NCBI RefSeq assembly: GCF_014699005.1
Contig: NZ_JACWZY010000002.1
Coordinates: forward strand, 372,001-436,000
Source: Spirosoma profusum
GTDB lineage: Bacteria > Bacteroidota > Bacteroidia > Cytophagales > Spirosomataceae
DNA length: 64,000 nucleotides
Reading direction: 5' to 3'
In this document: positions 1 to 64,000 of the stretch, in pieces
Position numbering within the stretch: the stretch's first letter is position 1
Layout of the letters: every line of letters starts with the position of its first letter
Notes under the pieces: model-generated
The model's database searches: none
Told to the model about the DNA's origin: nothing
What the model saw: the letters and a program-made list of their open reading frames with translations, nothing else
Translations under genes and position numbers: made by a program

Positions 1-1139
1 TAGGCACTCCAACGTAGTGCGGTGGCGAATGCTTTGGTAAGCGCGTGGACCTGTTCGGCGATAGCGCGGAGTCGTTTTGGGCCATGATAAACGGCATAAC
101 TACTCGCCATAACGGCTAATAAAACCTGCGCCGTGCAAATGTTCGACGTGGCCTTCTCCCGACGAATGTGCTGTTCGCGAGTTTGGAGCGCCATACGTAG
201 CGCAGGTTTGCCTTCGGCATCCTGCGATACACCAATAATTCGGCCGGGAATCTGCCGTTTGAACGCGTCGCGGGTAGCAAAAAAACCAGCATGTGGACCG
301 CCATAGCCCATCGGAACGCCAAAACGCTGCGACGAACCCACCACTACGTCGGCACCCATCTCACCGGGCGATGTCAGCAGTGTCAGCGCCAACAAATCAG
401 CGGCTACTGCTACGTTGATGTTCAGGTCATGAGCCGCAGCAATCAGGTCGGTATAATCAAATACAGCCCCATCCGATGCCGGGTATTGCAACAGCAAACC
501 AAAAATGCCCTCGTTCGTCAGGTCGGCGCTCTGGTGATCGCCAACCACTACGTTGATATCCAGTGGAATCGCTCGCGTAATTACTACGTCGATGGTTTGC
601 GGATGGCAGCGTTCCGATACAAAGAACGTAGCCGCATTTTTCTTCGCGGCCGGACGTAGCGCGTAGAGCATGTGCATGGCTTCGGCGGCTGCGGTCGCTT
701 CGTCAAGCAGCGACGCATTGGCCAGATCCATTCCTGTCAGGTCAGATACAACCGTCTGAAAATTCAGCAGCGCTTCGAGACGTCCCTGCGCAATTTCTGC
801 CTGATAGGGCGTATAAGCCGTGTACCAGGCCGGATTTTCCAGAATGTTACGTAGGATAACGTTCGGCGTAATTGTGTCGTAGTAACCGGCGCCGATGTAA
901 GATTTAAACACTTTATTCTGGCCCGCCAGTTTTTTAAAATCCGTCAGAAACTGCATTTCTGATTTGGGAGCCGGTAAATCAAGCGATTTTTCGAGTCGAA
1001 TGGCTTGTGGAATGGTTTGCTCGATAAGCTGGTCGATGGACTCGACCCCTACTGTTTTGAGCATGTCGGCCTGAGCCGCGTCGGTTTGACCGTGGTGACG
1101 GTCTTCAAAAAGATCTGTCTGCTGAAGCGTTAATTTCAT
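1..1139 (-). CDS. gcvP: Glycine dehydrogenase (decarboxylating), P protein, N-terminal part
   Basis: Translating the minus strand from the ATG at 1139 gives an open frame with no stop to the window edge, about 379 residues of a protein that is normally about 960. It begins [17 protein letters not shown] and contains [16 protein letters not shown] and [19 protein letters not shown], hallmarks of the P protein N-terminal half. The enzyme is the PLP-dependent decarboxylase of the glycine cleavage system and releases CO2 from glycine in the cytoplasm. The PLP lysine lies in the C-terminal half, outside the window. Its promoter region is shared with the divergent glycosyltransferase at 1242. Confidence 0.93.
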
Positions 1140-1241
1140 GCCTGGGAAACCCGCGTGTTCGTTTGGATGGAAACCCAAATTTACGGGAGAAGGTGCAAAC
1201 TTCCGTATTATTGTGGCCCGATAATTGCCAGCCCTACTTTG

Positions 1242-2078
1242 ATGCATCAAAATAATGTACCTTTAGTGTCGGTGGTTATGCCGGTTTATAACGGTGAACG
1301 GTACCTTACCGAAGCCATAGAGAGTATTTTGACGCAACAGTATTCGAATTTCGAGTTACTGATTCTTGACAATGGATCAACTGATAGCACACCTGATCTG
1401 TTAGCCAGATTTGCCCGGGTCGATAGCCGGATTCGGCTACTTCATGAACCAAAACCGTTTGGATATGGGGGCGAAGTAGCCAGTAACGTAGCAGCCCGTC
1501 AGGCAAAAGGAGCGTTTATTGCTAAACTAGATGCGGATGACGTAGCAATGCCAGATCGACTGATTAAACAAGTTAATTATCTGATTTCCAATCCAGATGT
1601 ATTTCTGGTGGGTAGTCAGCTTATACTTATCGACGAGACCGGGCAAGTTACTGGTAAGCGCGACTATCCGGTTACACATGAGGAGATTTATAGCCAGTTT
1701 TACCTTAAGTTTCCGATTGCGAACCCGGCCGTCATGTTCCGTAATATCCTGAAAGAGGATATGTATCAAATTAAGTTTCCTCATTTCAATGATTATTACA
1801 GTTTGTTTCGGCTCATACATACGGGCTATCGGATGCACAACCTACCCGAAGCCCTGACCGCCTACCGTATCCATACGACCAATACTGTATTTACGAATCT
1901 GAGGGCCAAATGGAGCAGTAACGTAATGATAAAACAAGCTTTTGTTCGGGAATTTGGTTACTCGGCTCCCTGGATTCACCGACTGAAAATAGCAGCTATC
2001 ACACAGGTAATTAACTTGTTCCCGGAACGTATGCTGCTCAAAATAATGAACAAAGCCCGTCAGCTAATCAATGCATAA
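1242..2078 (+). CDS. Family 2 glycosyltransferase
   Basis: This 278-residue GT-A enzyme has the usual GT2 opening ([14 protein letters not shown], residues 9-22), the LDNGSTDST nucleotide-binding segment near 42-50 and a DADD metal-binding motif at 97-100. I chose the ATG at 1242; an in-frame extension from 1155 reads through divergent promoter DNA and looks unlike protein. No membrane segment is evident, so it probably acts at the inner face of the cytoplasmic membrane on an activated sugar donor. It is the first of five co-directional genes (6 bp to the next), suggesting synthesis of a surface glycan. The donor and acceptor cannot be read from the sequence. Confidence 0.9.
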
Positions 2079-2084
2079 TCGACC

Positions 2085-2852
2085 ATGATTGGACGCATTC
2101 TTAAACTCGGCTCTCAAATGGTTTGGGGGGGGATGAAAGCAACTCCCGCTTACATTAGTGACTATTTTACGCTTAAAAAACAGTTAAACGGGCATTCTGA
2201 CTTTCCGATTCGAAGTTATTACCCGGCCATTTTTGACCGATACGCAGAAAGTGGAGAATTGGTAAAGCATTATTTTTTGCAGGATCTATACGTAGCACAG
2301 CGCATCTTCAAAAATAATCCCGTCAGGCACATGGATATTGGCTCGCGTATCGACGGCTTTGTTGGGCACGTGGCTTCATATCGATCCGTGGAAATTATTG
2401 ATATTCGCCCGTTGTCCCGTTCCATTCCAAACGTAAGTTTTCGGCAGGCTGATTTAATGAATTTGCCACCGGATCTGATCCATTCAACGGACTCTATCTC
2501 AGCCCTGCACGCCATTGAGCACTTTGGGCTGGGCCGCTACGGCGATCCAATTGACGTTGATGGGCATATTAAAGCGTTAGACAATATTCGCCAGATTATT
2601 AAACCGGGTGGTACGTTCTATTTTTCGTCGCCCATCGGCCCTCAGGGTATTGTGTATAATGCCCACCGCGTGTTCTCTGTCAATTACCTCATTCGCTTGT
2701 TTGAGCCTCATTATACGATTGACCGGTTTTCGTACATTGATGACAATGAGCAATTTAGAGAAGATGTTGATGTACATTCCGCCGATGCGCTGACCAATTT
2801 TGGATGCGAATATGGCTGTGGTATTTTTGAAATGACCCGACGAACCGATTAA
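2085..2852 (+). CDS. DUF268 family, methyltransferase-like protein
   Basis: The 255-residue product has a Rossmann methyltransferase-like core: HMDIGSRIDGFVGH near residue 82 resembles the SAM-binding glycine loop, followed by the acidic strand end VEIIDIRPL and a conserved SALHAIEHFGLGRYGD block. The HAIEH/GLGRYGDP pattern is typical of DUF268 proteins, which occur in polysaccharide clusters. The enzymatic activity of the family is not established to my knowledge; a methyltransferase role is inference. It lies 6 bp after the GT2 gene and 3 bp before the FkbM gene, so the three are probably co-transcribed. Confidence 0.75.
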   Translation: MIGRILKLGSQMVWGGMKATPAYISDYFTLKKQLNGHSDFPIRSYYPAIFDRYAESGELVKHYFLQDLYVAQRIFKNNPVRHMDIGSRIDGFVGHVASYRSVEIIDIRPLSRSIPNVSFRQADLMNLPPDLIHSTDSISALHAIEHFGLGRYGDPIDVDGHIKALDNIRQIIKPGGTFYFSSPIGPQGIVYNAHRVFSVNYLIRLFEPHYTIDRFSYIDDNEQFREDVDVHSADALTNFGCEYGCGIFEMTRRTD

Positions 2853-2855
2853 GCG

Positions 2856-3647
2856 ATGAAGCGATTCTTACAGTGGCTGCTGGCTCCTATCCGAATGACA
2901 TGGCTTCAGCCCTTCTATGAAAAACTGTATTTGTTTACAATTTATGCCATGAATTATGGCGGAGGGTCGTTTACGGATGATAGCGGGGAGAAAAACGTAA
3001 TTCAATACGTTGCCCGGAAAACCGCTGACCAGCCCGAACCGGTTGTCGTTTTCGATGTGGGCGCCAATGTGGGTAGTTATGCGCGTATGGTGCTGAACGG
3101 ATTGGGCAATCGGGCAATGATTCATTGTTTTGAGCCTTCGCAAGCAACGTATCAGACCCTGAAAACGAACGTACCCGAACCCAACGTTAAGAAACATAAT
3201 CTTGGTTTAAGTGATCAGGCAGGCGAGCTGGCTCTGTATACCGATGCCGCGCAATCAGGCATGACCTCTGTATATCAGCGGGATTTACAGCACATCAACG
3301 TATCATTTGCCCAGAACGAAGTGGCAGTTTTCAGCACTGTAGATGAGTTTTCTGCTGCCCAAAATATTCGACAAATCGATTTATTGAAAATCGACGTAGA
3401 AGGCCACGAATTAGCCGTTTTAAAAGGCGCTCGTCAAATGATCGATGAGCAACGTATTCGGTTTATCCAGTTTGAATTTGGTGGAACCAGTATCGATTCG
3501 CGAACGTATTTCCGCGATTTCTGGCGGCTGCTCTCACCGAATTATACGTTATATCGGATCGTTGGAAATGGTCTGCGACGTATCGATGCTTATTCTGAAT
3601 TCCTCGAAATATTCGTTACGGTCAATTTCCTGGCCGAACGTAAATAA
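2856..3647 (+). CDS. FkbM family SAM-dependent methyltransferase
   Basis: The product has 263 residues. The SAM-binding motif is DVGANVGSY at 67-75, followed by IHCFEPS (acidic loop) and the FkbM hallmark DLLKIDVEGHELAVLKGA near 172-189. FkbM-type enzymes usually O-methylate hydroxyl groups of sugars or small molecules. In this cluster the natural inference is methylation of a glycan or its lipid-linked precursor. The start ATG follows the previous stop by 3 bp. A second FkbM paralogue lies at 4562, with the fucosyltransferase between them, which suggests two methylated positions or alternative acceptors. Confidence 0.88.
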   Translation: MKRFLQWLLAPIRMTWLQPFYEKLYLFTIYAMNYGGGSFTDDSGEKNVIQYVARKTADQPEPVVVFDVGANVGSYARMVLNGLGNRAMIHCFEPSQATYQTLKTNVPEPNVKKHNLGLSDQAGELALYTDAAQSGMTSVYQRDLQHINVSFAQNEVAVFSTVDEFSAAQNIRQIDLLKIDVEGHELAVLKGARQMIDEQRIRFIQFEFGGTSIDSRTYFRDFWRLLSPNYTLYRIVGNGLRRIDAYSEFLEIFVTVNFLAERK

Positions 3648-3676
3648 GCCGACCGTTCACCCACAGCTACTACGTT

Positions 3677-4543
3677 ATGGTCATTTCTGTGCTTGCGGGC
3701 GGATTAGGGAATCAGCTATTTCAGTACGCTTTTGGCTTTCGCATGGCCCGGCAACTCCAAACCGAACTCCGGCTGGAGCGGCACATGCTGGAAAGTCAAA
3801 CTTTGGCCCGTCTCCGAAATTATACACCCCGTCAGTATGAACTTGATGTGTTTGGCATAACCAATGCTGAAGCATCGTGGAGTGATACGTTACTGTCCCT
3901 GAGCCGAACGTTGCTATCTGGTCACCAGGTGGTTCTGCTACGTGAGTCGGAGCCTGCTACGTTAGCCAAAGTAAGCGCACGAACGAAGGATGTGTTATGC
4001 GTTGGCTATTGGCAATCAGAAGATTATTTCAAATCTGAGTCCGAAGCGTTGCGGACGCAATTACGCTTTCAGAAGCGTCCTTCTGATGCTACGTTAGCCG
4101 TTGCCGACTCGATTCGGACACACCCAAATGCTACGTTCGTTCATATTCGCCGGGGTGATTACGTAACGAATGCCATCACAAATCAGCATCATGGTGTTTG
4201 CGGAGAAGCGTACTACCAACAGGCGGTTAGGTACGTTCGCGAGAGAGCTGCAGATACTCATTTTTTCGTTTTTTCCGACGATCAGACGTGGGTCAAACGG
4301 GAGCTAGGCGCATTACTCAGCCCTGCTACGTTTATTGAGCACAATAAAGGCGCTGACAGCTGGCAGGATATGTATTTAATGAGCTTATGCCGAAACGCCA
4401 TTGTTGCTAACAGTTCGTTTAGCTGGTGGGGCGCGTGGCTAAATGGGCAGTCCGAGCGGATTGTTGTAGCTCCTCAACGCTGGTTTGCCGCTGATAAGTC
4501 AAGTTATCCTTCGGTTGTTCCTCCACACTGGATTACAGTATAA
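3677..4543 (+). CDS. Alpha-1,2-fucosyltransferase (GT11)
   Basis: The 288-residue protein begins with GGLGNQLFQYAFG (residues 8-20), carries the GDP-fucose-binding motif VHIRRGDYV near 154-162 and the family-typical C-terminal block NSSFSWWGAWLN. These are diagnostic of GT11 enzymes such as WbiQ and FutC, which transfer fucose from GDP-fucose to the 2-position of galactose. The length fits the family. Placed between two FkbM methyltransferases it implies a fucosylated, probably methylated surface polysaccharide. The gene is unusually rich in GCTACGTT (3956, 4088, 4130, 4325). Confidence 0.92.
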   Translation: MVISVLAGGLGNQLFQYAFGFRMARQLQTELRLERHMLESQTLARLRNYTPRQYELDVFGITNAEASWSDTLLSLSRTLLSGHQVVLLRESEPATLAKVSARTKDVLCVGYWQSEDYFKSESEALRTQLRFQKRPSDATLAVADSIRTHPNATFVHIRRGDYVTNAITNQHHGVCGEAYYQQAVRYVRERAADTHFFVFSDDQTWVKRELGALLSPATFIEHNKGADSWQDMYLMSLCRNAIVANSSFSWWGAWLNGQSERIVVAPQRWFAADKSSYPSVVPPHWITV

Positions 4544-4561
4544 ATAAACCCTTTTACAAGC

Positions 4562-5287
4562 ATGATTCGGCAATTATTAGCTCCTTACTGGCATAAATTC
4601 TATGATCGAATGATGGCCAGCCGTCGTAAAAATTTTTATAAAACATTGATTAAACCCGGCGATTTATGTTTCGACGTAGGGGCTAATATTGGTAATCGAA
4701 CGGCTATTTTTCTGGGGCTTAAAGCCCGCGTTGTTGCTATAGAACCGCAGCCCAGTTGTGTTGAGGCCCTAAAAAAGCGGTTTGGCAATCAAATTGAACT
4801 GGTAGCCAAAGGATTAGGAGCAACGGAAGGAGAATTGCCCATCCACATCAGTACAAACAGTACGTTGTCGAGTTTTTCGGAAGAGTGGATTGATGCCGTT
4901 CAGGACCGATTCGCTGACTATAGCTGGAATGAAACCATTATGGTACCAGTTACGACACTCGATGATTTGATAGCCAGCTATGGAGTGCCGACTTTTTGTA
5001 AAATAGATGTAGAAGGATTTGAATTACAGGTGTTGCGGGGGCTAACGCAGCCAATTCCAATGCTTTCACTCGAATATGCCGTGCCGGAAGCCAAGAGTAA
5101 CCTCGTTGCCGTTATTGACCTGCTTAATTCACTCGCGGCTGATGTACGATTCAATTATTCGCCCGGCGAAAGTATGCAATTGGCACTACCTGAGTTCATT
5201 TCATACGCTGAGTTTACGAATCTCATTAACTCTCCGAAATTTGAGCAAACGCTCTTTGGCGATGTATACGTCAAAAGTCGGCTGTAG
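4562..5287 (+). CDS. FkbM family methyltransferase, second copy
   Basis: The 241-residue product shows CFDVGANIGNRT near 36-47 (SAM loop), VVAIEPQPSC (acidic loop) and FCKIDVEGFELQVLRGL near 147-163, the FkbM signature. It shares domain order with the gene at 2856 but is diverged from it, so this is not a recent duplication. It lies 18 bp after the fucosyltransferase and ends the plus-strand glycan cluster; the next genes run convergently on the minus strand. The likely role is O-methylation of a sugar; the acceptor is unknown. Confidence 0.88.
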   Translation: MIRQLLAPYWHKFYDRMMASRRKNFYKTLIKPGDLCFDVGANIGNRTAIFLGLKARVVAIEPQPSCVEALKKRFGNQIELVAKGLGATEGELPIHISTNSTLSSFSEEWIDAVQDRFADYSWNETIMVPVTTLDDLIASYGVPTFCKIDVEGFELQVLRGLTQPIPMLSLEYAVPEAKSNLVAVIDLLNSLAADVRFNYSPGESMQLALPEFISYAEFTNLINSPKFEQTLFGDVYVKSRL

Positions 5288-5300
5288 GTGATTTCAGTGC

Positions 5301-8441: not shown

Positions 8442-8570
8442 GAATTCGACTATTGAAATCGATCTTTGGGTTGGACTGGTATTTGCTAATACTCAATCAA
8501 ACTTACTAATACCGTGCCAAATTTTCATAAGATTCTGTGCTCTCTTCCTCAAAATAGCTAATTTGCCCGT

Positions 8571-31065: not shown

Positions 31066-33225
31066 ATGATACAACCTGTGCTTCGCCTGGCCGCACTGTC
31101 GGCTACGCTATTTGTTACTCAACAGAATCTGGTGCTGGCTCAATCGATACCTGCCAACACAGCCTCGATACGTACTGATTCCTCTCAGGGTGGCCCGCTC
31201 GATTTGGGCAAGATGTGGACATTTGATAATCCACCCAAAGAGTTTTTCAGTAAAACGTATGGATTCACCCCGGACGAAAAATGGTTCGAGGAAGCTCGAT
31301 TGGCGTCGCTACGTTTCGCTGATTATTGCTCGGCTTCGTTCGTGTCGGCGAATGGCCTTGTCATGACCAACCACCACTGCGCCCGCGAGTCGGGAACGGG
31401 TGTTACGCGGAAAGGCGAAGACCTGAACGCGACCGGTTTCTTTGCCAAAACAGCCGCCGAAGAACGGAAAGTTGAAGGTTTGTTCGTAGACCAGCTGGTG
31501 AAAATCGAAGACATCACGAAGCGGGTGCAGGATGCCATGAATAGCGCTACGTCGGAGCAGGCAAAGTTGCAGGCGCGTGAAGAAGCATTTTCGGCAATCA
31601 AGCAGGAATACGGCCAGAAGGATGGCTGGAAAGGGCTGGAGTTGCAGACGATTGTGTTTTACAACGGCGGCCGTTATTCCATTTATGGCTTTAAACGCTA
31701 TAACGACGTGCGTCTGGTGTTTATGCCCGAATTGCAACTTGGCTTTTTCGGGGGCGATTACGACAACTTTACGTATCCACGTTACGCGCTGGATTGTTCG
31801 TTCTTTCGGGTTTACGACAACGGCAAGCCACTGCAAACGACGCACTTCTTCAAATTCAATCCGAATGGTATTCGTGATGGCGAGCCAATTTTTGTAATTG
31901 GTAATCCGGGCCATACCGAACGGCTCAAAACCGTTGCCGAACTGGAAATGGACCGCGATATGCAGACACCTGCTACCATTCAGCTTTTACAAAATCGGTC
32001 GGCGGCTTTGAAAATCTATAATGCAACGGCCAAAAGTGACAGCGTTCTCAACGAAATTTTTAGCTATGATAACAGCCTGAAAGCCTACGGCGGACAACTG
32101 GCTGGTTTGAAGGATGCGAGTTTGCTGGCACGTAAAGGCGTTTTCGAAAACCAGTTTAAAGCCGCAGCCAAAACCAAAAATCTCCCAGCCGATCAGCTTA
32201 AAACCTGGGATGATATTGCCGCCAACACTGCGCAAATGCGTAAGCTGTTCAATGATGCCAACTACCTCGGTCCCAGCGAACGTACCATGGGCGAGTTGAT
32301 GACCTTTGCGAACGTAGTGTCTCAATACAGCGAGTTGCTCGCTTCCCGGCCACAGGACGCCGAACGGGCACGTGGCCTGATGATATCTCCGCCTGTGAAA
32401 AGTCTGGCGCTGGACGAGGCTTATCTGGCGGCTCACCTAGCCGAAGCACAACAGGCACTCGGAAACGACGACCCTTACGTAAAAACGGCTCTGACTGGTC
32501 CTGATGGCAAGATGCGTACGGCGAAAGAAGCGGCCGCCTATCTGGTTAAGAATACCAAACTGCAAGACCCTGCTTTTGTGAGCGAACTGGCTACGCGCCC
32601 CTATGCCGCCAGTGTCTCCGACGACCCAATGCTGGTGCTGGCGCGTATCGGTTTTTCGCGTTATCGAAATGCCGCGTTACAAATGCGCGATCTGGGTCAG
32701 AAGCAGGAAGTGCTACGTGGTCAGTTGGGCCGGATGCTGTATGATGTGTATGGAACCGCCGTTCCGCCCGACGCTACGTTCTCGCTACGTATCAACGATG
32801 GCGTTGTGAAATCGTACGATTACAACGGCACGAAAGCCCCCATTCTCACTACGTTTGCTGGGTTGTATGACCGGAATTATTCGTTTGCTAACAAAGCTCC
32901 GTGGGATTTGCCGGCTCGCTGGAAAAACCCACCAGCCGAATTGCTGAAACAGCCGATGTGTTTTATTTCGACAAACGACATTATTGGTGGTAACTCGGGA
33001 AGTCCGATGATTAACAAAAACCGGGAAGCGGTTGGACTGGCTTTCGATGGCAATATGGAAAGCCTGCCGGGCGAGTTTATTTTCGTGCCCGACGCCAACC
33101 GGACCATTTCCGTACATACGGGCGGCATCGTGGCTGCGCTACGTTACATCTACAAAGCCGACCGGCTGGCTACCGAACTCGTTGGCGCTCCGGCTACTGC
33201 AAAACCGGCCCCGACAAAAAAATGA
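31066..33225 (+). CDS. S46-family dipeptidyl peptidase (DPP7/DPP11 type)
   Basis: 719 residues, the usual S46 length. A signal peptide (LAALSATLFVTQQNLVLA) precedes a chymotrypsin-like double barrel interrupted by a helical domain. The catalytic histidine is in SANGLVMTNHHCARES (H103/H104) and the serine in IGGNSGSPMIN (S644), followed by GLAFDGNMES, all family hallmarks. It removes dipeptides from N-termini in the periplasm. The P1 preference (hydrophobic in DPP7, acidic in DPP11) cannot be assigned from what I can align by eye. The segment after the serine (HTGGIVAALRYIYKAD) departs from the usual DVRYVLF block. Confidence 0.93.
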   Translation: MIQPVLRLAALSATLFVTQQNLVLAQSIPANTASIRTDSSQGGPLDLGKMWTFDNPPKEFFSKTYGFTPDEKWFEEARLASLRFADYCSASFVSANGLVMTNHHCARESGTGVTRKGEDLNATGFFAKTAAEERKVEGLFVDQLVKIEDITKRVQDAMNSATSEQAKLQAREEAFSAIKQEYGQKDGWKGLELQTIVFYNGGRYSIYGFKRYNDVRLVFMPELQLGFFGGDYDNFTYPRYALDCSFFRVYDNGKPLQTTHFFKFNPNGIRDGEPIFVIGNPGHTERLKTVAELEMDRDMQTPATIQLLQNRSAALKIYNATAKSDSVLNEIFSYDNSLKAYGGQLAGLKDASLLARKGVFENQFKAAAKTKNLPADQLKTWDDIAANTAQMRKLFNDANYLGPSERTMGELMTFANVVSQYSELLASRPQDAERARGLMISPPVKSLALDEAYLAAHLAEAQQALGNDDPYVKTALTGPDGKMRTAKEAAAYLVKNTKLQDPAFVSELATRPYAASVSDDPMLVLARIGFSRYRNAALQMRDLGQKQEVLRGQLGRMLYDVYGTAVPPDATFSLRINDGVVKSYDYNGTKAPILTTFAGLYDRNYSFANKAPWDLPARWKNPPAELLKQPMCFISTNDIIGGNSGSPMINKNREAVGLAFDGNMESLPGEFIFVPDANRTISVHTGGIVAALRYIYKADRLATELVGAPATAKPAPTKK

Positions 33226-33228
33226 GCG

Positions 33229-33320
33229 TTTTTGTCATGCTGATGCACGAAGCATCTTAACGTTTCCTAACATTCAAATAAGGAAACGTTAAGATGCTTC
33301 GTGCCTCAGCATGACAAAAA
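33229..33320. repeat. Palindromic intergenic repeat, ATGCT subtype, copy 3
   Basis: An almost perfect palindrome of 92 bp including the middle (TTAACGTTTCCT with AGGAAACGTTAA). The loop of the arm hairpins differs from the other copies: GATGCACGA on the left and its near-complement (GAGGCACGA) on the right, but still 9 nt between ATGCT and AGCAT. Confidence 0.92.
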
Positions 33321-49573: not shown

Positions 49574-50974
49574 ATGGCTTCACAGTACGATGTAATCGTT
49601 GTGGGTAGCGGGCCGGGCGGCTATGTAGCTGCTATCCGGGCGTCGCAATTGGGATTGAAAACGGCTGTCATCGAGCGCGAAAGTCTCGGCGGCATTTGCC
49701 TGAACTGGGGTTGTATTCCCACCAAAGCTCTGCTGAAATCCGCGCAGGTTTTTGAATATATCAAGCATTCCGCCGATTACGGCATTACTATTTCGGGCGA
49801 GTCGAAACCCGATTTTGGTGCCGTAATCAAACGGAGTCGGGGCGTTGCCGATAGCATGAGCAAAGGCGTTACGTTCCTGATGAAGAAGAATAAAATCGAT
49901 GTCATTGCCGGCACGGGTAAAGTGAAAAAAGGCAAGAAAGTAGACGTAACGGCTGCCGATGGTAAGGTTACGGAATACGAAGCCAAACACATCATCATCG
50001 CCACCGGTGGTCGGGCGCGTCAGTTGCCAAGCGTCCCCATCGACGGCAACAAAGTGATCGAATACCGGAAAGCGATGTCGCTCGAAAAACGGCCTGATTC
50101 GATGCTGGTGATTGGTTCGGGTGCCATTGGTGTTGAGTTCGCGTATGTGTATGCCAGCATGGGCACGAAAGTGACCATCATTGAATTCCTGCCGAACGTA
50201 GTGCCCGTTGAAGATGAAGACATCTCCAAAGAACTCGCCAAGCAGTACAAAAAACTCGGTATAGACATCTACACAAAATCGGAAGTAACGAAAGTCGATA
50301 CGAGCGGCAACGGCTGCAAAGTGTTTGTGAAAACGCCCGACGGTGAGAAAACCTTCGACGTCGACGTCGTACTGTCGGCGGCTGGCGTTGTGGCTAACAT
50401 CGAAAACATTGGTCTTGAAGAAACGGGTATCGCCGTTGATCGGGGCAAAATCGTAACCGACGATTATTACCGCACCAACGTAGATGGTTATTACGCCATC
50501 GGCGATTGCACGAAAGGTCAGGCGCTGGCACACGTAGCGTCGGCTGAAGCCATCATCTGCGTTGAGAAAATTGCTGGCTTGGCACACGTAGAGCCACTGA
50601 ATTACAACAACATTCCGGGTTGTACGTACTGCTCACCTGAAATCGCTTCGGTGGGTTACACGGAGAAAGCGGCTCGTGAAGCTGGTTACGAACTGAAAGT
50701 GGGTAAGTTCCCGTTCTCGGCATCGGGTAAGGCGAAGGCCGCCGGTACTCCGGAAGGTTTCGTGAAGGTAATTTTCGATGCCAAATACGGCGAGTTTTTA
50801 GGGGCTCACTTCATCGGTAACAACGTAACGGAAATGATTGCCGAGGTAGTAGCTGCCCGCAAACTCGAAACCACAGGCGAAGAAATTCTGAAAGCCGTTC
50901 ACCCGCACCCCACCATGTCGGAAGCCATCAAAGATGCGACGGAAGCGGCTTACGGTGAGGCTATTCACTTGTAG
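49574..50974 (+). CDS. lpdA: Dihydrolipoyl dehydrogenase
   Basis: The 466-residue flavoprotein begins with the FAD motif VVGSGPGGYVAA and redox pair C42/C47 in GGICLNWGCIPTKALL. The NAD-binding motif VIGSGAIGVEFAYVY (near 177) and the catalytic HPHPTMSEA (H445, E450) at the C-terminus complete the enzyme. It reoxidises dihydrolipoyl groups in pyruvate and 2-oxoglutarate dehydrogenase and in glycine cleavage, where it would act with GcvP at the left end of the window. It is monocistronic, with a terminator downstream. Confidence 0.97.
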   Translation: MASQYDVIVVGSGPGGYVAAIRASQLGLKTAVIERESLGGICLNWGCIPTKALLKSAQVFEYIKHSADYGITISGESKPDFGAVIKRSRGVADSMSKGVTFLMKKNKIDVIAGTGKVKKGKKVDVTAADGKVTEYEAKHIIIATGGRARQLPSVPIDGNKVIEYRKAMSLEKRPDSMLVIGSGAIGVEFAYVYASMGTKVTIIEFLPNVVPVEDEDISKELAKQYKKLGIDIYTKSEVTKVDTSGNGCKVFVKTPDGEKTFDVDVVLSAAGVVANIENIGLEETGIAVDRGKIVTDDYYRTNVDGYYAIGDCTKGQALAHVASAEAIICVEKIAGLAHVEPLNYNNIPGCTYCSPEIASVGYTEKAAREAGYELKVGKFPFSASGKAKAAGTPEGFVKVIFDAKYGEFLGAHFIGNNVTEMIAEVVAARKLETTGEEILKAVHPHPTMSEAIKDATEAAYGEAIHL

Positions 50975-54733: not shown

Positions 54734-54766
54734 TATTACTACGTAAGGTGAATAATGGGTTAGTGA

Positions 54767-54982: not shown

Positions 54983-55044
54983 TCTTCCGTACTTAACTAG
55001 CTTTCACATTAAAATTCAATAATTCAAAAAAATAATTAAAAATT

Positions 55045-55073: not shown

Positions 55074-55172
55074 TTTAGAGAAACGTAGCATTCGTATCTT
55101 GTACTTACCGAGTGAAGTCTACGCAACTAACCTAACCTGATATAAAATCAATACTTTCCTCTACCAACCAAA

Positions 55173-55844: not shown

Positions 55845-55857
55845 TAAATCCGACATC

Positions 55858-55887
55858 GACTAAGTGTTTTTCCGGGGCTAAATCGTC
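55858..55887 (+). promoter_or_regulatory. ECF-type promoter upstream of fecR
   Basis: GACTAAGTGTTTTT (55858-55871) followed by 12 bases and CGTC (55884-55887), 24 bp before the ATG of the FecR gene. It overlaps the end of the sigma gene's intergenic space. It would drive fecR-susC-susD. Confidence 0.6.
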
Positions 55888-55910
55888 ATGAGATTACAAC
55901 TTATCTACAC

Positions 55911-56921: not shown

Positions 56922-56940
56922 CTAAATAAACCCTTACCAT

Positions 56941-59900
56941 ATGGAAAAATTAGTACGTATTCTACTCCTGCTGGGGGTAGGGATGGGAGGAGTATATCCA
57001 GGCTTTTCCCAAACGCTGGCAAGCGTGAAGCATTTGCAGGAACAGAATTCTCCAACGGGGAGGATGAACGTAGCAGGAGAACAGGCAGCCGATATTTCGG
57101 TTCAGGGTACTGTATCAGATGAAAAAGGTGAAGGTTTGCCGGGTGTGAGTATTCTGCTGAAAGGAACCCAGAAAGGCTCGACCACTGATGCTAACGGGCG
57201 GTACAAACTAGACGTGCCGAACACGGCTGCTACGTTGATTTTCAGTTTTGTTGGCTATGCGTCGCAGGAAATCGTTGTGGGGAGCCGCACGAGCGTGAAC
57301 GTTACGTTGGTAGCTGACGACAAAACGTTGAATGAAGTCGTTGTAATTGGCTATGGCACCGTTCAAAAGAAAGATCTGACGGGGGCTGTGGCTTCGGTAG
57401 GCAGTAAATCCATTCAGGAAATGGCTGCGCCACGTATCGACCAGGCCCTGATCGGGAAAGTGGCGGGCGTGCAGGTGAAACCCGTTTCGGGTGAACCCGG
57501 TGCCGCTCCGCAAATCAGAATACGTGGTGTTGGTAGTATTTCGGCGGGGGCCGGACCGCTCTACGTTGTGGATGGTTTTCCAATCTCCAGCATACAAAAC
57601 CTGAACCCGAACGATGTTGAAACCATCGACGTATTGAAAGATGCGTCGGCTACCGCCATCTACGGATCGCGGGGCGCAAACGGCGTGGTGATCATCAACA
57701 CGAAACGAGGAAAATTAGGTAAGGCTGCTATTAATTTCAACTATCAGTTTGGCTTTCAGAACATAGCCAAACGGCCCGTGCTGCAAACAGGGATAGAAGA
57801 AGCGCAGCATTATTTCGACGGCGTGCGCAACCGAAATCTGGATGAAGGCAACGACGTATCAGGTAACCCGCTTAACTGGAAAGCCCCCGTTCCGCAAACT
57901 ATTCTGGACGTGCTTTCGGGAAAACTCACCACCAACGAAGACCCACTTGATGCGATTCTACGTAGCGGTCCGCAGCAGCAGTACCAATTAACGGCATCTG
58001 GCGGCAGCGAGAACATGCGCTATGCCATTAGCGGAGAGTATTTTAATCAGGACGGGATTATTCTGAATACCAATTTCAAACGGTACTCCGTCCGGGCAAA
58101 TCTCGACGCGAGACTCTCGCCAAAACTCACGTTGAAAGTGAATTTGAATCCTTCGTACACCGATAAATTCAATGTAGGTGGAGCGGGTGCCGAGGACGTA
58201 GCAACGTTTTCTGATATTACCAACAACCCGTTGTATAATGCACTGGTCATTCCAACGTATCAATCGCTGCTAAATCCTGACGGGAGTTATTATCCGTTTG
58301 GTAATGGGCTGGATGCCGTGGTGACCAGCAAAAACCCGCTCGCGCTGGCTAAAGAAATTAAGGCCCGGCAAAAGGGGGTTGGTTTTCTGGGTAATACGTT
58401 CATCGACTATGCCATCATGGATAACCTGAAGGTCAACGTCATGCTTGGCATCAACCTGATGAACATTAAAGGAAGCTACTTCAAGCCTCAAATGGCGGCC
58501 TTCCTGAATGAACTGGCATCGGGTACCGACAATGCATCGCAACGACTGAACTGGATTACGGAAACGACGCTGAACTATACCAAAAGCCTGGGCAAACACA
58601 ACTTCACTGGACTATTGGGCTACACGACGCAACGGGAAACGTTTGAATACAACTCGTTGACCAGCAACCGTTATCCGAATAACCTCGTGCCAACGCTGAG
58701 CGCGGTGAGCGGTATTCTGACCGGTGGTTCTTCTAACGTAGCGGAGTGGTCGTTGGTGTCGTATCTGGGACGTATCAACTACAACTATAACAGCAAATAC
58801 TACGTAACGGCATCGTTACGTACCGATGGCTCCTCACGTTTTGGTGCGCAGAACAAATATGGCCTGTTCCCTTCAGCAGCGCTGGCCTGGCGGATTTCGG
58901 ACGAGAATTTCATGAAAGACGTTAGGTTTATCAGCGAACTTAAACTACGTACCAGCTACGGAAAAACCGGGAATAACAACATCGGTAACTACGACCACCT
59001 CGCCACCATTAACTACGAAAAATACGTACTGGGTGGAACGGGTGTTGGCGGCTTCTCTCCGGGACGGCTGGCCAACCCAAATCTGACCTGGGAAACGCAG
59101 CAACAGGTAAACGTAGGTGTCGATGTGAGTTTCCTGAACAGCCGGATAGCCCTTTCCCTGGATCATTTCCGGTCAAAAAATACAGATTTGCTGCTGAACG
59201 TCAACATTCCTGACATTACTGGCTTCAATACGGCGTTGCAGAACATCGGTGAAGTGAAAAACACCGGCTGGGAAATTACCCTGAACTCATTTAATACGCA
59301 GGGCGCTTTTAAATGGGAAACTTCACTGAATTTCTCAGCCTATAAAAACGAAGTGGTTCGGTTAGGGCCTTCCGGTGATCCAATTATTTCGGGGGGAAAT
59401 ATTACCATGATCGGTCAGCCCGTGGGTATGTTTTACGGCTGGCTGACCGACGGTATTTTCAAAACCAAAGCTGAACTGGACCGGGGACCGCTCTGGAATC
59501 CGGGCGGACGCGATGCCTCGCGGGTAGGCGACGTTCGATTCATCGATGTCAGCGGTCCGAACGGAACGCCGGATGGTGTCATCAATAGCCTCGACCGAAC
59601 GGTTATGGGCTCGCCCTATCCTGATTTTTATTACGGTATGACGAACAGCTTTTCCTTTAAAAATCTGAGTCTGAGCATCAGTTTGCAGGGTGTACAGGGA
59701 AACAGCGTACTTGCCCTGTCGAGAGAGCAACTTGCCAACGACCGCGCTCGCTTCCGGCAGTACGCGTTCATGAACAATTACTGGAAATCGGAGACGGAGC
59801 CGGGCGATGGCTACTCCGTACGGCCCAACGACGTACCGACGGGGAATTTCAGAGGTACCTATAGCCAACGCTGGCTTGACGATGGGTCTTACCTACGTAT

Positions 59901-60126
59901 CAACAATATCGTTCTCGGCTACGTCCTGCCCGAAGCCATTACCCGGAAGGCCAAGCTCAGTTCAGTACGTTTGTCCGTAACGGCGAATAACCCGTTCCTC
60001 TTTACGAAGTTCATCGGCTTCAACCCGGATGTTAGCCGGAGCGATAGCCCACTGACCCCCGGTAACGAACGGTACGATTACCCCACGGCCAAAAGTCTTC
60101 TGTTCGGTATCAACATCGGTTTCTAA
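56941..60126 (+). CDS. SusC/RagA-type TonB-linked outer-membrane receptor
   Basis: The 1061-residue protein has a signal peptide (ILLLLGVGMGGVYPGFS), a CarboxypepD_reg domain (about 52-130: VQGTVSDEKGEGLPGVSILL, GRYKLDVPNT), then the family signature VVVIGYGTVQKKDLTGAVAS near 135-154, a plug (QIRIRGVGSISAGAGPLYVV, ATAIYGSRGANGVVIINTK) and a large barrel. It imports glycans or similar ligands with SusD and TonB energy. It lacks an STN signalling domain, which FecR-linked receptors often have. No glycosidase gene is adjacent. The gene is the third of a sigma-fecR-susC-susD operon. Confidence 0.95.
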   Translation: MEKLVRILLLLGVGMGGVYPGFSQTLASVKHLQEQNSPTGRMNVAGEQAADISVQGTVSDEKGEGLPGVSILLKGTQKGSTTDANGRYKLDVPNTAATLIFSFVGYASQEIVVGSRTSVNVTLVADDKTLNEVVVIGYGTVQKKDLTGAVASVGSKSIQEMAAPRIDQALIGKVAGVQVKPVSGEPGAAPQIRIRGVGSISAGAGPLYVVDGFPISSIQNLNPNDVETIDVLKDASATAIYGSRGANGVVIINTKRGKLGKAAINFNYQFGFQNIAKRPVLQTGIEEAQHYFDGVRNRNLDEGNDVSGNPLNWKAPVPQTILDVLSGKLTTNEDPLDAILRSGPQQQYQLTASGGSENMRYAISGEYFNQDGIILNTNFKRYSVRANLDARLSPKLTLKVNLNPSYTDKFNVGGAGAEDVATFSDITNNPLYNALVIPTYQSLLNPDGSYYPFGNGLDAVVTSKNPLALAKEIKARQKGVGFLGNTFIDYAIMDNLKVNVMLGINLMNIKGSYFKPQMAAFLNELASGTDNASQRLNWITETTLNYTKSLGKHNFTGLLGYTTQRETFEYNSLTSNRYPNNLVPTLSAVSGILTGGSSNVAEWSLVSYLGRINYNYNSKYYVTASLRTDGSSRFGAQNKYGLFPSAALAWRISDENFMKDVRFISELKLRTSYGKTGNNNIGNYDHLATINYEKYVLGGTGVGGFSPGRLANPNLTWETQQQVNVGVDVSFLNSRIALSLDHFRSKNTDLLLNVNIPDITGFNTALQNIGEVKNTGWEITLNSFNTQGAFKWETSLNFSAYKNEVVRLGPSGDPIISGGNITMIGQPVGMFYGWLTDGIFKTKAELDRGPLWNPGGRDASRVGDVRFIDVSGPNGTPDGVINSLDRTVMGSPYPDFYYGMTNSFSFKNLSLSISLQGVQGNSVLALSREQLANDRARFRQYAFMNNYWKSETEPGDGYSVRPNDVPTGNFRGTYSQRWLDDGSYLRINNIVLGYVLPEAITRKAKLSSVRLSVTANNPFLFTKFIGFNPDVSRSDSPLTPGNERYDYPTAKSLLFGINIGF

Positions 60127-60140
60127 TCCTTCTAATCTCC

Positions 60141-61586
60141 ATGAAAAAGATAGTTTCAGTTGTGGCGATGGTCATGTTACTGATGACCTCCTGTCGGAAA
60201 GATTTTATTGAAATCCTGCCAATAGATACTGTAACGGTTGATGTGCTCTATAAAACCGACAAAGATTATCAGGATGCTATTGTTGGTATTTACGGAATTT
60301 ATCAGGATCAGTACGCAAACATGTATTACTACGGCGATATCCGGGGTGATGATGTGTGGGATGAACTGGTTAAGGGTACGGCGGGCGCCTTTGATAACTT
60401 CACCCTCTCGAACGACGACGGAACATTGATCACCACCTGGCGCAACTATTATAAAGCCATTACCCGGGCCAATACGTTGTTGGAGCGAATCGGTTCGACT
60501 GATGCGGCTGTCATCACCAACAAAAACCGTCACATCGGCGAGGCCGAATTTTTGCGGGCGCTGGCTTATTTCGATCTAGTCAGAATCTTCGGCGACGTAC
60601 CGATGGTCACGAAATCGTTGAGCATCGCTGACTCATATACTACGCCCCGCGAAAAAGTGGATAAAATTTATGATGAAGTTATCATCAAGGATTTGCTGGA
60701 TGCCGAAGCCAAATTGCCAGCCACCTATGCTGGTTCCGAAGTTGGCCGGGCCACGAAAGGGGCCGCTCGGGCGTTGCTGGGCAAAGTATATCTCACCCGG
60801 AAAGATTTTACAAAGGCCGAAGTAAAACTACAGGAAGTAACTACTATGGGCTATTCGCTGCTACCCAACTGGGCCGATTTGTGGGATTACACCAAAAACG
60901 AACACCATAGCGAATTCATTTTCGATATCGAATACGAGCAGGGGTTGGGTGGTGAAGGCAGCATTTATACCAATCGGTTTACGCCCAAAGTCACATCTAT
61001 GATCGCTTTCTATGGAATCGCTGGTTCGGTCGATGATCAGAACACGCCCCACCAGGTCTTGTTTGATTTGTTCGAAGCGAAAGACAAACGCAAAGACCTG
61101 ACGGCTTCGAAAGGCTATACGGATGCTACTGGTAAATTCATTCCATTGCTGGTTTCTTCGAACAACATGTCGGCCTACACCCGCAAATACATTGTCAAGA
61201 TTGCCACGGCCAACGACAGCCCGGCAAACTGGAAGGTAATCCGCTACGCCGACGTATTACTGATGTACGCCGAAGCACTGAACGAGAACGGTAAAACGAC
61301 AGCCGCTCTGCCTTATCTGAATCAGATACGTACCCGAGCTGGTATCGACGCCCTGGCAGCGGGCATAACCCAAGCCGCACTACGTGAGCAAATTGTGCTG
61401 GAGCGTCGGCGGGAGTTGGCTTTTGAAGGACATCGGTGGTTTGATCTGATACGTACCGGCCAGGCGCTTAATGTCATGGCGAAATACGGAATGAAAGCGC
61501 ACCATGTCTTATTCCCGATTCCGCTGGCTCAGATTCAGTTAATTAATAACACGACCATATTCCCGCAGAATCCGGGTTATCAATAA
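60141..61586 (+). CDS. SusD/RagB-type outer-membrane lipoprotein
   Basis: 481 residues with a lipoprotein signal (IVSVVAMVMLLMTSCRKDF, Cys 18). SusD features: TPR-like helices (YQDAIVGIYGIYQDQYANMY), FLRALAYFDLVRIFGDVPMV near 133-152 and a C-terminal LERRRELAFEGHRWFDLIRTG. It binds the ligand at the surface and closes over SusC. The gene lies 15 bp after susC. The ligand cannot be inferred from the sequence. Confidence 0.95.
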   Translation: MKKIVSVVAMVMLLMTSCRKDFIEILPIDTVTVDVLYKTDKDYQDAIVGIYGIYQDQYANMYYYGDIRGDDVWDELVKGTAGAFDNFTLSNDDGTLITTWRNYYKAITRANTLLERIGSTDAAVITNKNRHIGEAEFLRALAYFDLVRIFGDVPMVTKSLSIADSYTTPREKVDKIYDEVIIKDLLDAEAKLPATYAGSEVGRATKGAARALLGKVYLTRKDFTKAEVKLQEVTTMGYSLLPNWADLWDYTKNEHHSEFIFDIEYEQGLGGEGSIYTNRFTPKVTSMIAFYGIAGSVDDQNTPHQVLFDLFEAKDKRKDLTASKGYTDATGKFIPLLVSSNNMSAYTRKYIVKIATANDSPANWKVIRYADVLLMYAEALNENGKTTAALPYLNQIRTRAGIDALAAGITQAALREQIVLERRRELAFEGHRWFDLIRTGQALNVMAKYGMKAHHVLFPIPLAQIQLINNTTIFPQNPGYQ

Positions 61587-61607
61587 ATCAATTGCCAATA
61601 CTGATGG

Positions 61608-61703
61608 AACGTTGTCTGTTTACCCCTAAATCCCCTAAAGGGAACTTTGTCTGATCACGAGCCAAGTCCCCTTTAGGGGATTTAGGGGTAAACAGACAAC
61701 GTT
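61608..61703. repeat. Long palindromic intergenic repeat, CCCCTAAA type
   Basis: AACGTTGTCTGTTTACCCCT at the left has its complement at the right (AGGGGTAAACAGACAACGTT) and the palindrome extends through TAAATCCCCTAAAGGGA. Each arm contains TCCCC/GGGGA self-pairing. It follows the SusD stop. Confidence 0.85.
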
Positions 61704-61751
61704 TTATTCTTCCATAAAAATGAATTTGAACCCTTTTCTATCACCAAATTT

Positions 61752-62918
61752 ATGAAGACAATTAAAACCGCTTTTCTGCTGCTGTTAAGCGGCCTGATTT
61801 TCGTATCGGCCACTGCCTGGATAGCGTCATCGGGCGACAAACTGACAACTTCTGCCCCAAAACCAGCCCCTAAAGTTCAGCGTCTGTTGTACGTAGTAAC
61901 GCCTGGTATTCGTAACTATCTGGGTTATGGCGGTCATGGGATTCAGGTCTTCGACATCGACAATAATCACAAGTTTCTGAAGTTCATCAAAACGCCCGGT
62001 GGCATGATGAAAAAAGGTATTCCATCGAACGTAAAGGGGGTCGATGTGAGTCTGTCTACCAACTGTATCTATATCAGTACGTTAGAAGCAATTCAATGCA
62101 TCGATCTGGTCACGGAAAAAACGCTTTGGGAAAAGGAATACGAAGGGGGCGTCGACCGGATTTCGATTTCGCCCGACGGCAAGATTATTTACGCACCCTC
62201 ACTCGAAAAAGCGCACTGGAACGTAGTAGATGCCAAAACAGGAGACGTAATAACCAAAATTGTTACCAATTCCGGTTCACACAACACCATTTACGGACCT
62301 GATGGTAAAGAAGTGTATATGGCTGGTCTGAAGTCGACCATGCTGAACGTAGCAGATACGAAAACGCATACTGTGTCTAAACAGGTAGGTCCGTTTGGCG
62401 CCGAAATCCGCCCGTTTACGATCAACGGTGCGCAGACGCTCGTTTATGTAAACGTCAATGGATTGCTCGGTTTTGAGATTGGGGATCTGGTAACCGGTAA
62501 ATTCCTGCATCGGGTAGTGGTCGAAGGATGGAATGTTGGTGAAGTAAGGCGGCATGGTTGCCCTAGTCACGGCATTGGCCTGACGCCCGATGAAAAAGAA
62601 CTCTGGTTATGCGACGGCCATAATCTCCGCCTGCACGTTTTTGACAACACAGTGATGCCACCGGTCCAGAAAACCACGATCGCGCTGAAAGATATGCCCG
62701 GCTGGATTACGTTTAGCCTGGATGGTAAATACGCCTATCCAGCAACCGGCGAGGTTATCGATGTGAAAACCCGCAAAATCATTACGAATCTGGAAGATGC
62801 TGACCACAACGACGTTCAAAGCGAGAAAATGGTCGAAATTCACTTCAATGGCGGAAAACCCGTTGCCGCCGGCGATCAGTTCGGTCTTGGCCAGGTGAGA
62901 AAGGCGACCAAGAATTAA
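61752..62918 (+). CDS. Exported beta-propeller protein (YncE-like)
   Basis: 388 residues with a signal segment (FLLLLSGLIFVSATAWIAS). Repeated WD/YVTN-like blades include GIQVFDIDNN, ISPDGKIIYAPSLEKA, YGPDGKEVYMAGL, VDVKTRKIITNLEDADHND and PDEKELWLCDGHN. The blades resemble YncE-type propellers that bind or act on small compounds. There is no catalytic motif. The position after susD suggests a ligand-binding or lactonase-like partner of the uptake locus. Confidence 0.82.
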   Translation: MKTIKTAFLLLLSGLIFVSATAWIASSGDKLTTSAPKPAPKVQRLLYVVTPGIRNYLGYGGHGIQVFDIDNNHKFLKFIKTPGGMMKKGIPSNVKGVDVSLSTNCIYISTLEAIQCIDLVTEKTLWEKEYEGGVDRISISPDGKIIYAPSLEKAHWNVVDAKTGDVITKIVTNSGSHNTIYGPDGKEVYMAGLKSTMLNVADTKTHTVSKQVGPFGAEIRPFTINGAQTLVYVNVNGLLGFEIGDLVTGKFLHRVVVEGWNVGEVRRHGCPSHGIGLTPDEKELWLCDGHNLRLHVFDNTVMPPVQKTTIALKDMPGWITFSLDGKYAYPATGEVIDVKTRKIITNLEDADHNDVQSEKMVEIHFNGGKPVAAGDQFGLGQVRKATKN

Positions 62919-62936
62919 TTGAATAAGTAGACATTT

Positions 62937-63084
62937 CAGCCCACTGCTTTAGCTGTGGGGCATCGAGTAAAACAAACCCATTTACGATTGAACCGTTTCA
63001 ACGGTTTTTACTCAGTAAACCGTTGAAACGGTTCTTTTGCCAAAGAATATTTCCTTAATTACCCATAGCTAAAGCAGTGGGCTG
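62937..63084. repeat. Nested double palindrome, AGCCCACTGC type
   Basis: Outer arms CAGCCCACTGCTTTAGCT (62937-62954) and AGCTAAAGCAGTGGGCTG (63067-63084) pair perfectly. Inside, GAACCGTTTCAACGGTTT (62990-63007) pairs perfectly with AAACCGTTGAAACGGTTC (63017-63034), and each arm is itself palindromic (AACCGTT/AACGGTT). The segments between (62955-62989 and 63035-63066) show no other structure. Confidence 0.9.
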
Positions 63085-63115
63085 ATACGGGTTAATTGTT
63101 TGTTATTCAAAGGGT

Positions 63116-63739
63116 ATGAAAAAACTCTCCGCATATATTCTCGCGCTCTTAGTATTACTGATCGGATCTGCCGTTCGCGCTCAATCGGCTGAAGAGTGGA
63201 CGGGGAAGAAGGCTGAGCAATGGTACACCAAGATGGAATGGCTGAATGGCTTACCCGCCAAACCGGGCGAAGGCATCAACAAAGAAGAGTTCGCCAAACG
63301 GTATCATAACAACCCGGCTGCCTGGGATAAAGCATTCCTGTTTCTGAAAAACACAGATTTCACCCGCCTGCGTCCGGGCAAGTACCCCATCGACGACGAG
63401 AATGTATTTGCGACCATTTCAGAAGGTCCACCCCGCGAAATCAACAGTTCGAAGTGGGAAGCCCATCAGACTTACACGGATATCCATTTCGTTGTGAAAG
63501 GAAAAGAAAAAATCGGTATTACGCCTGTCGAGAAAGTAAATGGGAACGTAGCAGTAGGTTATGACTCGGCGAAAGACATCGGTTTTTATTCGACTGACGA
63601 TGGGCCGTTCTACGTTGCCGAACCCGGTATTTTCTACATCGTTACGCCCACCGAAGCGCATAATCCCAGCAACAAAGTCGAAGGATACGACGGCGTTAAA
63701 AAAGTGGTGGTTAAAGTGAGAACAACGCCAACTCCCTAG
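63116..63739 (+). CDS. Exported YhcH/YjgK/YiaL-family (cupin-like) protein
   Basis: 207 residues with a signal peptide (LSAYILALLVLLIGSAVRA), a helical N-terminal extension (about 30-80) and a YhcH-like cupin domain: NSSKWEAHQTYTDIHFVVKG near 112-131 (E/H ligands), DIGFYSTDDGPFYVAEPGIF and TPTEAHNPS. The family includes NanQ, which opens or anomerises sialic acids, and YjgK/YiaL of sugar-acid pathways; most members are about 150 residues and cytoplasmic, so the export signal is unusual. It supports a sugar-uptake function of the locus. Confidence 0.82.
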   Translation: MKKLSAYILALLVLLIGSAVRAQSAEEWTGKKAEQWYTKMEWLNGLPAKPGEGINKEEFAKRYHNNPAAWDKAFLFLKNTDFTRLRPGKYPIDDENVFATISEGPPREINSSKWEAHQTYTDIHFVVKGKEKIGITPVEKVNGNVAVGYDSAKDIGFYSTDDGPFYVAEPGIFYIVTPTEAHNPSNKVEGYDGVKKVVVKVRTTPTP

Positions 63740-63788
63740 CCTATTCATGAACCTATTTTACACTTTCGGGAAAAATTAAAAATGGGTG

Positions 63789-63876
63789 TTTTTGTCAGGC
63801 TGACGAAGGAAGCATCTTTCTCCTTATTTGAGAATTAGGATACCTTAAGATGCTTCCTTCGTCAGCATGACAAAAA
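63789..63876. repeat. Palindromic intergenic repeat, ATGCT subtype, copy 9
   Basis: Left arm TTTTTGTCAGGCTGACGAAG (ATGCT changed to AGGCT), right arm GATGCTTCCTTCGTCAGCAT ending GACAAAAA. The left arm hairpin is weakened. Follows the YhcH-like gene. Confidence 0.9.
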
Positions 63877-63922
63877 CACCCTCCATAGAAAAGTTTATCT
63901 AGCTTCCAGCTCTCGACTTAGT

Positions 63923-64000
63923 ATGCACGTAGTGTTTTTAGATACCAAAACGGTCGGTGACGTACCGAATCTGAATCGGTTCGAAAAATATGGTCAGGTA
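63923..64000 (+). CDS. D-2-hydroxyacid dehydrogenase, N-terminal fragment
   Basis: The frame from the ATG at 63923 to the window end gives 26 residues, starting MHVVFLDTKTVGDVPNLNRF and continuing EKYGQV. Bacteroidota D-2-hydroxyacid dehydrogenases (glycerate or hydroxypyruvate reductase type) open with a very similar KIVFLDTxTVGxVPNL segment. The NAD-binding and catalytic parts are beyond the window. The neighbourhood of a sugar-uptake locus fits a role in sugar-acid metabolism. Confidence 0.6.
   Translation, partial: MHVVFLDTKTVGDVPNLNRFEKYGQV

Follow-up and report, generated by a model that had tools for sequence, protein, structure and literature searches.

Among the short words known to recur throughout a genome, the closest described counterparts of the one reported here are HIP1 (GCGATCGC) and the alternate highly iterated palindromes (HIPs) of cyanobacteria. 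In the part of Elhai's 2015 article on which we draw (PMC4390886), the significance of HIP1 is described as little known; HIPs are GC-rich palindromes that occur ∼500 to 2,500 times per million bases, every cyanobacterial genome with highly over-represented sequences has a putative methyltransferase that could modify these, and HIP1 is proposed to be maintained through methylation-directed mismatch repair. Here, we describe the word ACGTANYR (IUPAC code) of Spirosoma profusum, in a stretch of 64,000 nucleotides (contig NZ_JACWZY010000002.1, positions 372,001 to 436,000; the window) and in the genome to which it belongs (G000; 8.73 Mb in 81 contigs, 99.98% complete). Like HIPs, ACGTANYR greatly exceeds expectation throughout the genome and varies between close relatives, some being rich in it and others poor, and the likeness to HIP1 proposed in a sequence-only reading of the window holds in kind, extending to both orientations, coding and noncoding DNA, and silent codon choice. 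Unlike the cyanobacterial HIPs as portrayed in that part of the article, it belongs to the Bacteroidota, is asymmetric with a one-sided arm, reaches about 4,500 copies per million bases (∼5 per kb), and is tracked by none of the methyltransferase families tested.

Other frequent words offer partial parallels. Chi sequences, the short asymmetric words of recombination, are in excess in some genomes, can be frequent, and are usually oriented with respect to replication; ACGTANYR is likewise short and asymmetric but has no strand polarity. Restriction-modification targets commonly contain a degenerate YR position, as ACGTANYR does, but they are usually avoided, not enriched, in the host genome. 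The uptake signal sequences (USS) of Pasteurellaceae and the DNA uptake sequences (DUS) of Neisseriaceae are short asymmetric words that lie on both strands, are gained by point mutation, and are missing from newly acquired DNA, all of which they share with ACGTANYR. As far as the excerpts used here go, Haemophilus USS are spaced ∼1,000 bp apart on average, relatively evenly, and are under-represented in coding DNA (PMC7811141), and mismatched forms of uptake sequences are reported to be over-represented (PMC1939737). Among the open-access papers listed in searches on the subject, we found no description of ACGTANYR enrichment.

The excess of TACGT/ACGTA that drew attention to the window is real: ACGTA occurs 488 times on both strands (265 TACGT and 223 ACGTA on the plus strand), against 120 expected from dinucleotide composition, a 4.07-fold enrichment. 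The 8-mer GCTACGTT/AACGTAGC, for which at least 35 copies against ∼2 had been claimed, was counted 47 times where about 2 are expected, and the examples given for GCTACGTT (409, 3956, 4088, 4130, and 4325) are all among the counted copies. The nine sites claimed for positions 1 to 960 are correct when overlapping TACGTA is taken once (11 if taken twice), whereas the eight claimed for 32281 to 33240 come down to seven distinct cores (nine with double counting). The exact word also needs correction: the unit is neither the palindromic TACGTA nor the 8-mer GCTACGTT but the asymmetric ACGTANYR. The widest interval between adjacent ACGTANYR starts in the window is 1,420 bp, and the control word ACGTANRY has 35 copies there.

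Enrichment is not limited to the window, since the word is abundant across the whole genome. G000 contains 39,401 copies of ACGTANYR (19,710+19,691) versus 1,549+1,594 of the reversed word, and 5,462 copies of ACGTAGCA (2761+2701) versus 223 (119+104) of its reverse. The 8-mers that most strongly distinguish 670 kb of G000 from 440 kb of the congener G001 include ACGTAGCA, ACGTAACA, ACGTAGCG, ACGTAGTG, and ACGTATCA. Following ACGTA-N, the arms CA, CG, TA, and TG are enriched over G001 14.8-, 12.8-, 7.9-, and 6.8-fold, respectively; all other arm dinucleotides reach 1.3- to 2.7-fold, partly because of good arms on the opposite side. ACGT lacking both the 5′ T and the 3′ A is not enriched over G001 (0.75- to 1.08-fold), with the exception of the rare CACGTG (72 versus 43, 1.69-fold). 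Relative to pooled genomes low in the word (1.06 Mb), enrichment is 1.24-fold for cores that lack any full arm, 9.2-fold for those with one arm, and 15.8-fold for those with two. The second arm thus adds less than twofold rather than a further ninefold, and because the two-arm value is far below the product, we take the unit to be the asymmetric ACGTANYR; 3,183 of the 3,375 armed cores have a single arm. Plain ACGT and TACGTA were ruled out as the unit, as enrichment requires an arm, of which a single one suffices. The idea that a second arm is worthless (odds ratio of 0.16 in G000) proved too strong, as the low genomes themselves give 0.41. Core words with one mismatch stand at 0.75- to 1.25-fold in G000 for positions one to four, and recognition of the core is hence sharp; fifth-position mismatches are at 1.4- to 2.4-fold, a value confounded by the opposite arm.

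To account for coding constraints, synonymous codons were shuffled within each gene 50 times, keeping the protein and the codon usage. In window genes, ACGTA occurs 417 times against a shuffle mean of 139.4 (z 29) and AACGTAGC 40 times against 5.9 (z 16); ACGTANYR, counted in 54 window genes, occurs 281 times against 46 (6.2-fold; z 46), and the control ACGTANRY stays near expectation (32 versus 28.8). In 339 open reading frames (ORFs) of 456 kb, ACGTANYR exceeds the shuffles 6.3-fold (z 122), which rules out, for these genes, counts no higher than a codon-preserving null. The word is made largely through synonymous choice, as the bent silent codons noted in the sequence-only reading had suggested. 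Its density is almost the same in coding and intergenic DNA (50.4 and 47.1 per 10 kb in the 670-kb sample of G000; 4.5 and 5.3 in the 440-kb sample of G001), and it occurs on both strands and in all three codon phases, with a near-even split relative to gene orientation (1,446 same, 1,547 opposite). This bears out the earlier observation of both orientations in coding and noncoding DNA alike. Densities per 10 kb are 46.0 in divergent, 51.0 in convergent, and 51.8 in tandem gaps and 31 to 51 near gene starts, with a minimum over the initial 50 bases of the gene; a regulatory role was ruled out by the similarity across gap types and around gene starts. The copies are clumped in 500-bp windows (variance/mean of 1.56), and no helical period or spacing rule stood out in the G000 sample besides the codon period. 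Pairs of filled sites 8 to 500 bp apart occur at 0.91 to 1.07 of the frequency in within-gene shuffles, showing no mutual avoidance.

How the copies arose was approached with codon alignments (84,807 columns) of G000, its sister G004, and G013, the latter two low in the word. We defined a near-site as a sequence one change away from ACGTANYR and identical in G004 and G013, and we used 16 control words with a permuted core or a swapped arm. Among silent near-sites, 23/32 are sites in G000 compared to 40/416 for controls (Fisher p of 5e-15), a gain rate about 12 times that of controls (7.5 to 20, from the exact interval of 23/32); among nonsilent ones, 2/94 are sites versus 6/1,814 (p of 0.055). 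Conversion extends over transitions (9/10), transversions (10/17), and arm changes (4/5) and is seen both in rpo genes (10/11 versus 9/139) and in the other genes (13/21 versus 31/278). Of the rpo near-sites where six low genomes all lack the word, 5/6 are converted, as opposed to 3/115 controls (p of 2e-6); a stricter filter, requiring all six low genomes to agree base by base, left 0/0 silent cases and is uninformative. G020 and G027 hold 0/11 of the rpo near-sites. A nearby copy does not hold conversion back: 13/17 near-sites with a site within 50 bp are converted and 5/10 of those with none within 400 bp. Judging from these alignments, the word apparently accumulated in place, one point mutation at a time.

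The outcome is that G000 has filled 361 of its 745 silently reachable positions, compared to 41/653 in G004 and 57/682 in G013; the genes of contig C22 (456 kb of G000) give a similar picture (1,979/4,010). Four control words are filled alike in the three genomes, the biggest gap being that for ACGTANRY (51/456 versus 34/443 and 33/455). Reachable positions as such are also more numerous in G000, which does not hold for control words, suggesting that the amino acid sequence is pulled too. Old sites, a small set of positions counted in four genomes, are retained in 21/25 cases in the genomes rich in the word versus 133/229 for controls (p of 0.016).

The comparison with related genomes called for by the sequence-only reading covered 36 Spirosoma genomes, G000 included, of which four are rich in ACGTANYR: G000 (39,401 copies), G029 (22,928), G008 (22,187), and G031 (18,007). 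Five others (G033, G034, G007, G014, and G002) have 5,100 to 6,400 copies each, G003 is intermediate (10,207 in 5.8 Mb), and the remaining 26 form a baseline of about 2,400 to 4,900, over which the density in G000 is six- to tenfold. When ACGTAGCA was counted in 149 genomes (G000, 35 congeners, and 113 from outside the genus), two members of the same-family genus g18 stood out among the outsiders (G052 with 401 and G077 with 522, versus 152 and 170 for the reversed word); G147, from the same order, has few copies at an uneven ratio (73 versus 18). In 395 genomes, G000 among them, sampled evenly across the class, the next-highest ratio to the reversed control among those listed is 1.66 (G501). 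On an rpoB tree (30 loci; 33 genomes had a match), each of the four rich genomes forms a tip of its own among low ones, and constraining them together is rejected (approximately unbiased test, p-AU of 8e-60). The sisters of G000 on this tree, G020, G027, and G004, are all at baseline, and well-supported branches force at least three changes of ACGTANYR level. Abundance in four separate lineages suggests that something in the cells favors the word. The arm preferences of the four genomes correlate (mean r of 0.52 to 0.64 over 16 arms with independent baselines; 5 to 95% ranges of 0.30 to 0.79), which points to one common recognizing factor.

We conclude that the enrichment is genome-wide and that neither chance nor codon bias nor simple context mutation can be its main cause; each ACGTANYR copy is very probably favored individually. 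We propose that ACGTANYR serves as a highly iterated recognition element of which each copy would be favored anywhere and on either strand. Mutations creating it would reach fixation far more frequently than comparable changes, up to the point where about half of the silently reachable positions hold the word. The advantage would come from occupancy by an abundant DNA-binding factor that is conserved in the genus and whose effective pull differs among species. Copies do not make one another redundant, which argues against roles that need one copy per fragment (an uptake signal, Chi, or a strand mark for mismatch repair) and favors an effect that adds up copy by copy, such as factor occupancy or a per-site drive. 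That the cause is a conserved sequence-specific binding factor of the nucleoid or chromosome maintenance type is plausible, though we hold it tentatively; a nucleoid-type role may be part of this best reading. More doubtful is the full picture of a sequence-directed drive independent of methylation in Spirosoma, in which a conserved factor would fix most silent ACGTANYR-creating mutations regardless of neighbors, strand, and gene content, fill half of the silent opportunities, pull amino acids, and have risen about four times separately.

Several observations weigh against this interpretation. Intermediate genomes such as G003 exist, making "high" and "low" labels of convenience. Reachable positions are co-filled in the high genomes beyond independence (e.g., 25 versus 13.5 for G000 and G029), which leaves room for a shared origin followed by losses. 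G001 or G025, both low genomes, also has the word at half of the rpo conversions (5/10), so that some copies may predate the split and have been lost in G004 and G013, and the 13 conversions outside rpo genes were compared with G004 and G013 only. G001 and G025 each have 3/11 of the rpo near-sites (controls, 8/139 and 13/139), and the other high genomes hold just 5, 4, and 4 of the 11. Enrichment roughly doubles from one-armed to two-armed cores, and the second arm is hence not quite neutral. Retention of old sites in high genomes is hardly above that in low genomes (13/18); since strong plain selection should curb loss more, a drive acting on gain fits at least as well. Finally, the binding factor itself is putative.

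A drive linked to repair or recombination and free of benefit, in which a strand-choosing repair or heteroduplex-correcting enzyme retains the ACGTANYR allele, would produce nearly the same pattern as the binding factor; we consider it possible, though somewhat unlikely. It would explain why gain is strongly accelerated and loss only weakly reduced, and why the action is per site, in coding and noncoding DNA alike and over all classes of base change. The version of Elhai, however, needs a cognate methyltransferase, and five Pfam DNA methyltransferase families searched in the 36 genomes include none that is common to the four rich genomes and missing elsewhere: PF01555 has no match in G000 and G031, PF00145 none in G029, G031, and G008, and PF02086 none in G000, G008, and G031, while PF02384 (34/36 genomes) and PF07669 (33/36) do not separate high from low. 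The methylase target suggested in the sequence-only reading is accordingly unsupported, at the level of families and not of specificities, which Pfam searches do not reveal. Elhai's equilibrium, in the part of the article used here, is also only about one site per 1,000 bases (PMC4390886), against the density seen in G000, and neighboring copies do not slow conversion.

The single PF00145 gene of G000, coding for a 5-methylcytosine (m5C) methyltransferase (C22:462808), sits in a restriction locus (C22:461308 to 465237) beside genes for an MvaI/BcnI-family endonuclease and a Vsr mismatch endonuclease. Enzymes of the MvaI/BcnI type cut CCNGG-type sites, and no solved structure matches the endonuclease of this locus. 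Vsr-like repair of deaminated sites was considered as a source of the word; ACGTAG alone had hinted at it (0.63 to 0.64 for both transitions). It was rejected, as the neighbors of the full word are not clearly depleted (ATGTANYR at 0.75 versus 0.83 for the NRY control, ACATANYR at 0.89 versus 0.86) and the Vsr gene of G000 lies at a restriction locus of another type.

That ACGTANYR is a DNA uptake signal amassed by molecular drive through natural transformation is improbable, even though the word is asymmetric, lies on both strands, is gained by point mutation, and is uneven among species. A newly acquired mobile segment also lacks it: eight ORFs over 8.6 kb at C22:1-8580 have 0 copies where ∼43 are expected. 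Against this, copies tens of bases apart are as common as expected, the word is about five times denser than USS (on the partial account cited above), and coding and intergenic densities are alike, with none of the coding-DNA shortage of Haemophilus USS. One-mismatch forms of the first four core positions are not in excess, unlike those of uptake sequences, and a neighboring copy is not redundant. The mobile segment itself encodes a relaxase and a type IV secretion system (T4SS) coupling protein, along with low-GC cargo (HMGL-like, TauD/CsiD-like, and ATP-grasp proteins). A low-GC polysaccharide gene at C22:216555 to 218036 also has 0 copies.

A Chi-like site for an enzyme of the AddAB/RecBCD type, or a self-mark shielding host DNA from exonuclease, is still less likely. 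A short asymmetric word common to members of the genus would suit such a role, as would the frequency that Chi words can attain. However, we saw no strand skew when two contigs were divided into 50-kb bins (670 kb, origin position not fixed), where ACGTA stands at 869+1663 forward and 831+1666 reverse; this absence of polarity equally disfavors the Chi- or segregation-type signal of the sequence-only reading. Adjacent copies bring no diminishing return either.

Equally hard to sustain is an ancient feature, with a motif-rich ancestor of the genus and loss of the word in most lineages. The sharing of sites among high genomes beyond chance on reachable positions speaks for it, as does the half of the rpo conversions found in G001 or G025. 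The other half (5/10), though, are absent from all six low genomes, in a class where controls give 3/115, and the rpoB tree forces at least three changes of level and places the high genomes singly among low ones. Bias in codon usage, codon pairs, or general mutational context has next to no probability: most sites lie in genes at silent positions, as it would predict, but intergenic density is nearly equal, both strands and all phases are used, codon-preserving shuffles are exceeded by a z of 46 in the window, and several kinds of transversion convert, which no single context-dependent mutation yields.

Representative copies in the window are given in the table, together with a dihydrolipoyl dehydrogenase gene that served to assign the genome to Spirosoma and to locate syntenic regions in congeners (its product shares 93% identity with the Spirosoma fluviale enzyme and 92% with the S. 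oryzae enzyme).

Table. ACGTANYR copies and a reference gene in the window (positions relative to its first base)
Feature	Position	Strand	Remark
ACGTANYR, whole window	1..64000	both	337 copies (157 on +, 180 on −), spread throughout
First plus-strand ACGTANYR copy	12..19	+	
ACGTANYR copy	195..202	+	
ACGTANYR copy	342..349	−	YRNTACGT as written on +
ACGTANYR copy	408..415	−	beneath GCTACGTT at 409
ACGTANYR copy	1486..1493	+	beneath AACGTAGC at 1485
ACGTANYR copy	3955..3962	−	beneath GCTACGTT at 3956
ACGTANYR copy	4087..4094	−	beneath GCTACGTT at 4088
Dihydrolipoyl dehydrogenase gene	49574..50974	+	TIGR01350; separate from the element

The window also contains a cluster of glycosyltransferases (families 2 and 11) and FkbM-type methyltransferases (1155 to 5287), probably a surface polysaccharide locus, and a SusC/RagA-type receptor (TIGR04056, 908 bits) adjoining a SusD-like protein (56941 to 61586), a typical glycan uptake pair of Bacteroidota. 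Rfam searches at gathering scores gave no match in the window. Two further words have unusual frequencies. CGCCGC/GCGGCG is almost forbidden in Spirosoma: it occurs once versus 331 trinucleotide-expected copies in 670 kb of G000 and 0 times versus 193 in 440 kb of G001. Whole G000 has 55 copies and other members of the genus 1 to 174, except for G033 (1,047); many relatives have thousands, and some further genera of the family and order are similarly almost devoid of it. GATC is depleted in G000 (3,420 versus 5,707 trinucleotide-expected in 670 kb) and more weakly in G001 (3,890 versus 4,345).

ACGTANYR groups with HIP-like iterated words, yet it is not a palindrome, as single-armed cores predominate, and it has no visible methylase link. 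It adds another phylum with a buildup comparable to that of HIP1, denser, asymmetric, and with no methylase link in view. Codon choice and, slightly, amino acid sequence in such genomes are bent by a word unrelated to translation. The existence of rich and poor close relatives, G000 versus G004, G020, and G027, makes the cause of the buildup directly testable.

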